A stretch of 64,000 nucleotides of DNA from Sphingomonas echinoides ATCC 14820 (lineage in GTDB: Bacteria > Pseudomonadota > Alphaproteobacteria > Sphingomonadales > Sphingomonadaceae): NCBI RefSeq assembly GCF_000241465.1, contig NZ_JH584235.1:1101256-1165255 (forward strand), read 5' to 3'. Each line of letters begins with the position of its first letter. The stretch's first letter is position 1. This document shows, in pieces, positions 40,019 through 47,145 of this stretch. Position numbers and translations under genes: made by a program. The notes under the pieces are model-generated. The model saw nothing but the letters and a program-made list of their open reading frames with translations, did no database searches and was not told where the DNA came from.

Positions 40019-42396
40019 TCAGCCCTCGATCTTCGAGAAGTCTGCGACATTGTGCACCGCAGCACGGACCCGATCAAGCAAAGCGAGCCGGGCGGCGCGC
40101 TTTTCGGGATCGGAATCGTTGACGATCACGCCTTCAAAAAACGCATCGATCGGAGCGCGCAGCGTGGCGAGCGCCGCCATCGCGGCTTCGAAATCCTCGC
40201 GCGCCACCGCGGCGGCAGCGGCAGGCTCAGCCGAATCGAGCGCCAGCGCGAGCGCAGCCTCTGCCGGTTCCTTCTCCCTCTCCCCTTCAGGGGAGAGAGA
40301 GAAACGCCCTCTTTCTTCAAGATATTCGCCGCGCGCTTGTACCCGGCGAGGAGGTTCACCCCATCCTCGGTCCCGATAAACGCCTGCAACGCATGAACGC
40401 GCGCGAGCAAGCGGACGAGATCATCCTCGCCGCCAAGCGCGAACACCGCGTCGATCAGATCGTGCCGGACACCGGCTTCGCGTTGCTGGACTTTGAGGCG
40501 GTCGGCGAAGAAGTCGAGAAGACCATCGACTGATCTGTCAAACACTAGATACTTTGCAAATTCGATGAAATCAGGTTCACCGTCCCACTCGTAATAGCTG
40601 ATGAACGATCCGCCGATTTTGCGTTCGATCGCGCTTTCCGTATGATTACCTTTTGTCCAGTCGTACTCTTGGTCGAAATGAGCAAGGCGAGCTCTGGCGT
40701 GCCTCGGCTCAGCGTCATCGCCCTTATGGAACTCATTCTCCCAATATACAAACTGTGAGGCATGTATTGCAGCCGATGCCGCTACGACCGTGCTCAGCGG
40801 AAGCCGGAATTGGCCCTCAATGACCTGAGAGATTATTGCAATAGTAGCTCTACGAAGAGCGAATGGATCCTTGGAGCCAGTAGGCGGCAGCCCCGCCGCA
40901 AAGAAACCTACCAACGTATCCAGCTTATCCGCCAGCGACACCGCCACCGTTACCGGATCGGTCGGCACATCATCGCCCTGCCCGACCGGCTTGTAGTGAT
41001 CGCGGATCGCGGCGGCGACGCGGGGGTCTTGGCCTTGGGCCGCCGCGTAATAGCCGCCCATCAGGCCCTGCAATTCGGGAAACTCGCCGACCATGCCGGT
41101 GACGAGATCGGCCTTGCAGAGGAGCGCGGCGCGTTCCGCGAGCGCGGCAAGATTCTCCCTCTCCCCTTCAGGGGAGAGGGTCGGGGAGAGGGGCTGTGCT
41201 GGAATATCGAGGGCGTCGCTGGAGGCAGACTCCCCCTCTCCCCGGCCCTCTCCCCGCGAGCGGGGAGAGGGAGAAGAAACGATTCCCTCTTCCACCAGCC
41301 ACTTGGCCAGCTTCGCGACGCGCGCGACCTTGTCCGCGACGGTGCCCAATTTCTCGTGGAACACGATCCGGTCGAGCTTGGTCGCTTGCTCTTCCAGCGG
41401 CACCTTCAAATCGGTTTCGTAGAAGAATTTCGCGTCGGACAGGCGCGCCGCCAGCACCTTGCGGTTACCCTCGACGATCTTCGCGCCGCCATCGGCCGCA
41501 TCGATATTGGCGGTGCAGACGAACGCATTCGCCAAGGCCCCGTCCGCGCCACGGCACACGAAATATTTCTGGTTCACGCGCGCGGTGAGCTGGATCACTT
41601 CGGGGGGCACGCTGAGGAACGCCGCGTCGAAGCGGCCGAGCAGCGGCACCGGCCATTCGGTGAGGCCGGCATTTTCGGTCAACAGGCCCTCGTCCTGCAC
41701 CAGCTCGAGCCCCGCCTTGCGCGCCGCCATCGTCGCGCCGAGCGCGATGATCTGGCGGCGTTCGGCCTGGTCGACGATGACATGGCACGCGCGCAGTTTC
41801 TCGACATAATCGTCGGCCGAGCCAATCGTGATGACGCCGGGATGGTGGAAGCGATGGCCGACGGTGGCGGCGCCCGCCTGCACGCCGGCGATCTCGACCG
41901 GCACGACCGTATCGCCGAACAAAGCGACGATCCCTTGCAGCGGGCGCACCCAGCGCAGCGATTCCATCGTGGTCGAGCTGGCACCCCAGCGCATCGCCTT
42001 GGGCCAGGGAAACGCGCGGATGATCGCCGGGATCGCCTCGGCCAGCACCGCGCTGGTCGCGCGGCCGGGCTTGTCGACCACCGCGAACAGCACACCGTCA
42101 CGCTCGACCAATTGCTCGCGTGTGAGGCCGGTCTTGCGCAGAAACCCTTCAAGCGCTTGCGGCGGGGCGGAGGCCTTGGGCCCCTTGGTCTCTTCCGACA
42201 CCGCCGCCGTCTCGACCGGCAAGCCGCGCGCGATCAGCGTCAGGCGGCGCGGGGTGGCGTAGGTGACGATCTCGCTGGCGGTGAGGCCGCTCTTGGCGAT
42301 CTCGGCGGTGAACAGCTTGGCCAGATCCTCGCGCGCACGATCCTGCATTCGCGCAGGAATTTCCTCGGAGCGCAGCTCAAGCAAAAAGTCGGTCAT
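40019..42396 (-). CDS. glyS: Glycine--tRNA ligase beta subunit, interrupted by two palindromic repeats; frameshifted near the 3' end
   Basis: Beta subunit of the bacterial alpha2-beta2 GlyRS, carrying tRNA-binding and HD-like domains. It begins [24 protein letters not shown] and is normal through [12 protein letters not shown]. Two anomalies stand out. Residues about 374-415 are the translation of a 124-bp family A repeat (41153-41276), in frame. At a second, short copy (40272-40303) the frame shifts: the original frame runs on to a stop at 40126 with an Arg-rich tail, while the real C-terminus ([24 protein letters not shown] to VADFSKIEG, stop at 40019) lies in the -1 frame. Removing one CT unit or adding one base near 40290-40305 would restore a full protein. 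The cause could be sequencing error, slippage or a true lesion. The coordinates span both parts. Confidence 0.9.
40272..40303. repeat. Short family A palindrome in the 3' part of glyS, at the frameshift
   Basis: A 32-bp palindrome (14-bp arms with one mismatch around TTCA), a half-element of the repeat at 41153-41276. It lies between the codons for KKEG and those for [14 protein letters not shown], exactly where the glyS frame changes. One arm contains a (GA)n/(CT)n run, which is prone to slippage. Confidence 0.8.
41153..41276. repeat. Full-length family A palindromic repeat inside glyS
   Basis: About 124 bp: a left hairpin (CCCTCTCCCC-TTCA-GGGGAGAGGG), a G-rich strand TCGGGGAGAGGGGC, a 40-bp variable centre, then the complementary CCCCCTCTCCCCGGC and a right hairpin CCCTCTCCCCGCGAGCGGGGAGAGGG. 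The same architecture occurs between rplY and pth (47020-47145). It is translated in frame as a Ser/Pro/Gly/Arg/Glu-rich stretch of about 41 residues in GlyS. Confidence 0.85.
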
Positions 42397-42429: not shown

Positions 42430-42495
42430 CTTCGCGTCTTCGCGTCTTCGCGTGAGAAAGAAGGTTGGTTCACGCGAAGGCGCGAAGGCGCGAAG
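42430..42495. repeat. Family E inverted repeat between glyQ and glyS
   Basis: Arms 42430-42455 and 42470-42495 (built of CTTCGCG-type heptamers) pair over 26 bp with G-T wobbles around a 14-bp loop. A similar element lies at 46106-46172. Further degenerate copies of the GGCGCGGAG motif continue to about 42545. The element separates the two subunit genes of GlyRS within one transcript. Confidence 0.75.
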
Positions 42496-42574: not shown

Positions 42575-43468
42575 TCATGCGGCCCACCCCGGGAAGCGCG
42601 CTTCCCATTTTGCGGTGTTGTGCGCGATCCACGCGCCGCACGCGCCCTTCGCCAGATCGCGGACGCGGCCCATATAGGCCTGGCGCTCCGCCACCGAGAT
42701 GACGCCGCGCGCCTGCAACAGGTTGAAGATGTGGCTGGCCTTGATCGCCTGCTCATAGGCCGGGATCGGAAGCTGCTTGCCGAGGCAATTCTCGCATTCG
42801 GCGACATGCTTCTTGAACTGGTCGAACAGGCTGTCGGTATCGGCCACTTCGAAATTCCAGGTCGACATTTCGACCTCATTCTCGTGGAACACGTCGCCAT
42901 AGCTGACGCCAGCGTCGTTAAACGCCAGATCGTACACGCTGTCCTTGTTCTGGATATACATAGCGAGGCGTTCGAGCCCGTAGGTCAGCTCGCCCGCGAC
43001 CGGCTTCATGTCATAGCCGCCCATTTGCTGGAAATAGGTGAACTGCGTCACTTCCATCCCGTCGCACCACACTTCCCAGCCCAGCCCCCAGGCACCGAGC
43101 GTCGGGCTTTCCCAATCGTCCTCGACAAAGCGGATGTCGTGGACGAGCGGATCGATGCCGATCGCGGCGAGGCTGCCGAGATAGAGCGCCTGCAAATCGG
43201 GCGGGCTCGGCTTCAGGATCACCTGATATTGGTAATAATGCTGCAGCCGGTTGGGGTTTTCGCCATAGCGGCCATCGGTCGGGCGGCGGCACGGCTGGAC
43301 GAAGGCGGCGTTCCACGTCTCGGGGCCGAGCGCGCGCAGCGTCGTCGCCGGGTGAAAGGTGCCCGCCCCCATCTCCATGTCATAAGGCTGCAGAATCAGG
43401 CAGCCGTGCTGGCTCCAATACTCATGGAGCGTAAGGATCATGCGTTGGAAGCTGAGCGGTTGGGTCAC
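42575..43468 (-). CDS. glyQ: Glycine--tRNA ligase alpha subunit
   Basis: Catalytic subunit of the heterotetrameric GlyRS. The 297-residue product starts at GTG 43468 ([23 protein letters not shown]), matching the family start; the frame stays open upstream with ATG 43531 possible, but that would add 21 basic residues not typical of GlyQ. Characteristic segments are [49 protein letters not shown] and [21 protein letters not shown]. It precedes glyS with a 178-bp gap filled by repeats. Confidence 0.95.
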
Positions 43469-43552
43469 GCCGCGGGCTTTGGCGCAGCGCGGCGGGAAAT
43501 TCAACCAAGCGTTGCGACGCGCAAACGCCATGCCACGCTCGCGTGACTTTTT

Positions 43553-47019: not shown

Positions 47020-47145
47020 CTCCCTCTCCCCTGCAGGGGAGAGGGTCGGGGAGAGGGGCAGTGAACCACGCCAACGTGCGAGTGACTGCCCCTCTCCCGC
47101 GCTTCGCTGCGCTCGCTTGCCCTCTCCCCGCGAGCGGGGAGAGGG
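47020..47145. repeat. Full-length family A palindromic repeat between rplY and pth
   Basis: Left hairpin CCCTCTCCCC-TGCA-GGGGAGAGGG, strand TCGGGGAGAGGGGCAGT, a centre of about 25 bp, complement ACTGCCCCTCTCCC, then GCGCTTCGCTGCGCTCGC and the right hairpin CCCTCTCCCCGCGAGCGGGGAGAGGG. It is the intergenic counterpart of the element inside glyS (41153-41276) and fills the whole rplY-pth gap, ending 8 bp before the pth start. Confidence 0.9.

Follow-up and report, generated by a model that had tools for sequence, protein, structure and literature searches.

Mitochondrial bypassed (byp) hairpins lie within genes and can be of a length not divisible by three. The Rickettsia palindromic elements (RPE) are described, in the parts of PMC2229807 that we draw on, as protein-coding palindromes of 105-146 bp, present in many copies both in intergenic regions and in frame within conserved genes. 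REP elements, by the definition quoted from PMC12306157, seldom overlap coding regions. Here we discuss a glyS gene with palindromic inserts in a stretch of 64,000 nucleotides from Sphingomonas echinoides ATCC 14820, referred to below as the window.

The gene, for the beta subunit of GlyRS, is on the minus strand, and as assembled its zero frame is an ORF of 756 aa (40126-42396) that runs past a palindrome into an Arg-rich tail and stops at 40126. The C-terminal anticodon-binding part (DALR_1) is in the -1 frame at 40019-40282 of this strand, where it ends in a stop codon at 40019, as seen from both the ORF and the profile match. The Pfam tRNA_synt_2f profile matches the first ORF at E 1.3e-179 over profile positions 1-535 of 536, and glyQ, for the alpha subunit, lies intact beside it (42575-43498, minus strand, with a tRNA-synt_2e match), both of which are as expected for GlyRS beta; the DALR part is not in the same frame as assembled. 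It falls downstream in a separate ORF of 62 aa (40019-40207, minus strand, GTG start at 40207) that matches DALR_1 at E 1.7e-05, and in the search of the genome the DALR_1 match is at G000:C1:1141298-1141537, equivalent to 40043-40282 of the window, where the open frame is only 133 aa. The frame change itself is inside the palindrome at 40272-40303, which has a CT run in its left arm (gene strand). The Arg-rich end of the zero frame, the anticodon-binding sequence in the -1 frame and the change of frame within a CT-containing palindrome had all been put forward in a sequence-only reading of the locus, and the ORF list and the DALR_1 match bear them out, with all coordinates holding.

In a genome-wide search this glyS was the single match, no dimeric GlyRS was found in the genome at E 0.001 (a control for that search gave a signal in 14/14 genomes, above the cut-off in 7), and the plasmid records searched gave no match. 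Rescue of the cell by a backup glyS or by a dimeric GlyRS was thus rejected, as neither was found in the genome. Between glyQ and glyS, at 42430-42495, there is an inverted repeat of another kind, with 26-nt arms that are 92% complementary.

We refer to the position of the palindrome at 40272-40303 as site 2. The arms, 40272-40286 and 40289-40303, are of 15 nt each, 93% complementary and separated by a 2-nt spacer, and the RNA fold is at -30.3 kcal/mol (z -3.0), with 1 of 200 shuffles equally good. Across the genome there are 38 matches to the hairpin core, CTCTCCCC-N3-7-GGGGAGAG, with loops of 3, 4 or 6, and none to the reversed control pattern, so that this hairpin is not there by chance; the pattern with a loop of exactly 5 had no match in the genome. 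The 38 hairpins form 27 clusters, and as 11 of these are pairs 88-105 bp apart we take the full element to have two hairpins. This is the structure found at site 1 of glyS (41154-41272), where by inverted repeat and frame check there is a complete two-hairpin palindromic element of 119 bp, in frame. Two-hairpin elements are likewise in frame within valS, fmt and metH (L257, L264 and L265), while the dnaE copy (L254) holds an N run inside the element and for that reason its frame cannot be judged. A further two-hairpin element of the same family is present in the window at 47023-47143 and is probably intergenic, as the best coding frame on one side of it is not that on the other.

The site-2 copy belongs to this family and is the odd one in it, both of which are seen directly. 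A second hairpin or an inner arm is present in 24 of the 27 clusters, and two more are the halves of the dnaE element split by the N run. That leaves the window's site-2 copy as the one cluster that lacks a second hairpin, an inner arm and an N run alike. It has outer-type sequence on either side, as would result from joining the two outer halves of an element at one tip, and it is probably a collapsed two-hairpin element. The site-2 copy of G271 looks to be built in the same way, as does that of G074, which has NNN at the joint.

In the protein, site 2 starts directly after the 11-residue anticodon-contacting helix of GlyRS beta, with a loop of variable length beyond it. The 11-residue stretch before site 2 was aligned to residues 583-592 of E. 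coli GlyRS beta (7yse), in a weak block with an i-Evalue of 12 and with the numbering counted by hand. In PMC9908026, as far as it is drawn on here, Arg585 and Asn588 of the E. coli protein touch the anticodon, and by the same weak alignment (i-Evalue 12) the counterparts of both are retained upstream of site 2. Elsewhere in the gene, in the middle of the HD domain at 40504-40848, there is a hypervariable, AT-richer insert (GC 0.50 against 0.67 and 0.64 in the flanks), with no palindrome that accounts for it. In relatives this HD-domain region is of 81-345 nt and is in frame in 73/73 distinct sequences; it is longer than 150 nt in 44, and in 42 of those 44 its GC is below that of the flanks.

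Palindromic inserts recur, in frame, at site 2 of GlyRS in many related species. The genus was represented by 295 genomes, with the site-2 sequences drawn from part of them, and "in frame" means that the length between two anchors is divisible by three; by that definition L370 (G308, completeness 80) counts as in frame though other indels break its reading. Many different inserts occupy exactly site 2 in the 30 loci that were read. In a first count the loops of 92 distinct site-2 sequences ranged over 114-534 nt, and 89 had an in-frame length; this count left out 9 loci without the anchor pair, at contig ends or with a variant motif. The larger count, of 161 distinct sequences, has 155 of in-frame length, 4 out of frame (the window's copy among these) and 2 with N gaps. 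A palindrome is present (score at least 8, or N) in 77 of the in-frame sequences and in all 6 that are not intact (4 out of frame, 2 with N). Where there is none, 78 sequences are in frame and 0/78 are broken. At site 1, 65 of 68 distinct sequences are in frame, the exceptions being G074 (N), G083 and G088.

The family with CTCTCCC or GGGAGAG accounts for 37 site-2 sequences, of which 33 are of at least 204 nt. In the case of these long CTCTCCC copies, 31 of the 32 without N are in frame, with G083 the exception and G258, which has an N gap, as the 33rd. The short single-hairpin copies of 119-139 nt (those of the window, G271, G291 and G074, the last with NNN in the hairpin) are in frame in 0/4, and the length remainders for the window, G271 and G291 are 2, 1 and 2. 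The same loop is host to palindromes of unrelated-looking kinds, of the CTCTCCC, CCCCTCCC, ACCCCAGC and GCTCCTGC types (for example L007, L018, L005, L013 and L205), and longer non-palindromic stretches are also found in the site-2 loop of relatives. A quick tree built from 60 glyS bodies requires no fewer than 27 switches of insert family at site 2, and no fewer than 15 changes between presence and absence.

Looked at by domain, the ORF that contains the DALR part reaches 676 aa or more in 75/80 genomes of a first set, and 712 aa or more in 70 of the 76 matched genomes of a second (80 searched). Shorter DALR frames are found in 11 genomes, of which 9 were read and G340 and G318 left out. In those read there are apparently contig ends in G239, G227, G339 and G266, and an N gap at site 2 in G258 and at site 1 in G252. 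In G330 glyS is broken at the site-1 element, G308 has several breaks, and in the ninth, the one-contig genome G215, glyS (L351) changes frame at a palindrome-free point upstream of site 2. Near the end of glyS in G242 there is another DALR match, less strong than the first (65%), in a frame of 140 aa (G242:C1:1481103-1481249).

N runs and contig ends were observed directly at elements of this kind. In 704 kb of blocks from the window's own assembly there are 5 N runs, 3 of them with hairpin-arm motifs at their edges by script count and a fourth with a hairpin at its edge as judged by eye; among random 240-bp stretches 0.77% have such motifs. Additional N runs lie in or beside elements, at loci chosen on purpose. 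Among the nearest relatives, the contig of G244 (90% DNA identity over the part present) ends at the site-2 hairpin, with no other piece of glyS found in that genome, and G238 (90% over the first 383 aa) has an N run spanning site 1 to site 2. Of the other near relatives, G074 has the NNN inside its site-2 hairpin and G258 a site-2 run of 91 N. In G054, G090 and G068 the contig breaks off at the site-1 element. Masking by the operators is another possible source of the N runs.

General base error was rejected as the cause. In 617,817 coding bases of the genome, a screen that recovered 24 of 40 planted single-base deletions flagged 7 frameshift candidates, or 1.13 per 100 kb; the control G008, with 2 in 174,477, has 1.15 per 100 kb. 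For the genome a stricter version, which recovered only 3/9 planted deletions, gave 5 candidates. As base quality elsewhere is ordinary, the glyS break is tied to the repeat. The same screen gave 17 candidates in 167,742 coding bases (10.1 per 100 kb, about ninefold) for G083 (L287-L296), and gene breaks in that assembly are not trustworthy; the two glyS breaks of G083, one at each site, are probably general assembly noise.

We think it very likely that the frame break in glyS is an assembly error in which a two-hairpin element has been collapsed, because the break coincides with a double-hairpin repeat that has repeatedly defeated assemblies of the group. The gene would be an ordinary single-copy glyS with palindromic elements in two variable loops, and the site-2 element would normally be coding, in frame and with two strong hairpins. 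In the assembly the outer left and outer right halves would have been joined at one hairpin tip with the loss of about 100 bp, and because of that joint the frames would no longer match. Such a collapse most likely arose in sequencing or assembly and not in the cell, which probably has a whole glyS and makes a full-length subunit. Assembly error was one of three options in the sequence-only reading, and is well supported by the oddity of this copy in its genome, the N runs, the failure of relatives at the same palindrome, the contrast between short copies (0/4 in frame) and long ones (31/32), the absence of breaks in the 78 palindrome-free sequences, the ordinary base quality elsewhere and the lack of any other GlyRS. 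The reading had in mind a change of one or two bases; one small indel is probably too small for what seems to be about 100 bp missing. Counting against a collapse, the window's site-2 copy contains no N, its own assembly resolves 11 two-hairpin clusters, and G271 and G291 have single-hairpin, out-of-frame copies without N in an otherwise whole glyS. Past the hairpin G244 has a few more bases, which as in the window are of the outer type; a single-hairpin copy that is real and shared would give this, and so would a common route of collapse.

The similarity of G271 and G291 also makes a recurrent real deletion thinkable, in which a deletion or slippage at the palindrome took place in the lineage and the cell lives with a beta subunit that is without the last 90 or so anticodon-binding residues. 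Such a subunit need not be dead: in the portion of PMC8464048 used here E. coli GlyRS beta 1-575, shorter by 114 residues, still forms an active tetramer, with charging reduced, and truncation in the window would keep slightly more than 1-575, including, by the weak alignment, the counterparts of Arg585 and Asn588. However, a truncation that is tolerated predicts breaks at site 2 in sequences free of the palindrome, and there are 0/78, while the long copies stay in frame in 31/32, which argues that the C-terminal tail is under selection. A truncated but working subunit, as the sequence-only reading also suggested, is a possible outcome, but with no palindrome-free breaks it is less likely than an assembly error, and we consider it rather improbable.

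The third suggestion was recoding, with the ribosome shifting at the hairpin, or hopping over it, to give the full protein. In its favour, the hairpin is strong (-30.3 kcal/mol), and neither frame is interrupted by a stop between 40423 and 40128. However, a programmed -1 frameshift has a slippery heptamer a few bases before the hairpin, and the only in-frame X XXY YYZ heptamer of glyS, TTTTTTG at 40135-40141 (minus strand), lies after the hairpin, past most of the DALR part and just before the zero-frame stop; it arises from two Phe codons, both conserved, in the other frame. Nor is the two-frame arrangement conserved in relatives, as 155/161 site-2 sequences need no recoding. A slippery-site frameshift was thus rejected, and -1 slippage is not supported. 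As the remainders of the short copies differ (2, 1, 2) no single shift would serve them all, and recoding of any form is very unlikely. It is hardly more than conceivable that the single-hairpin copies of the window, G271 and G291 are real and, through hopping or shifting, are exempt from the need for a length divisible by three that holds for the two-hairpin copies. The 62-aa ORF and its GTG would allow a split gene, with the DALR part started alone at 40207 and joining the body as a separate chain, but by eye there is no Shine-Dalgarno-like stretch ahead of the GTG, the portion of the domain upstream of it would be lost, and no relative with a consistent split was seen among the loci read. 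A separate gene for the DALR part was rejected as unsupported, and we would put its likelihood as extremely low.

If real, the glyS frame break would touch an essential enzyme. If, as we think, the assembly has collapsed the element, then two-hairpin elements make sphingomonad housekeeping genes look broken in public assemblies. In either case the GlyRS loop, with in-frame palindromic inserts of several kinds, would be an instance of protein-coding palindromes, a known kind of element, in free-living bacteria. We found no report of palindromic inserts in Sphingomonas glyS in a search that covered few subscription papers (the one match concerned Vibrio), and none joining "palindromic element" with Sphingomonas among the matches listed.

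With regard to the known systems, the break differs from E. coli GlyRS beta 1-575 in that the latter is a laboratory construct, whereas the break is probably not real. As with byp there is a hairpin inside a gene with a length not bound to three, but here assembly failure explains the data. In common with REP and REPIN the hairpins are short, GC-rich, in many copies and often paired; unlike REP, as defined in the source above, copies are inside valS, fmt, metH and glyS. By description the elements resemble RPE, as characterised in the parts of the source used here, with copies of similar size (119 bp at site 1), many per genome and in frame inside genes. A palindrome of about 100-150 bp in many copies is what we find (38 hairpins in 27 clusters), the site-2 copy itself being one 32-bp hairpin, and the location in frame in conserved genes as well as between genes is also found (in frame in glyS site 1, valS, fmt and metH), though not for the site-2 copy as assembled. 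The likeness is one of description: the elements here probably differ from RPE in sequence, they differ in host group and in their two-hairpin build, and unlike RPE several kinds of palindrome share one loop of one protein.
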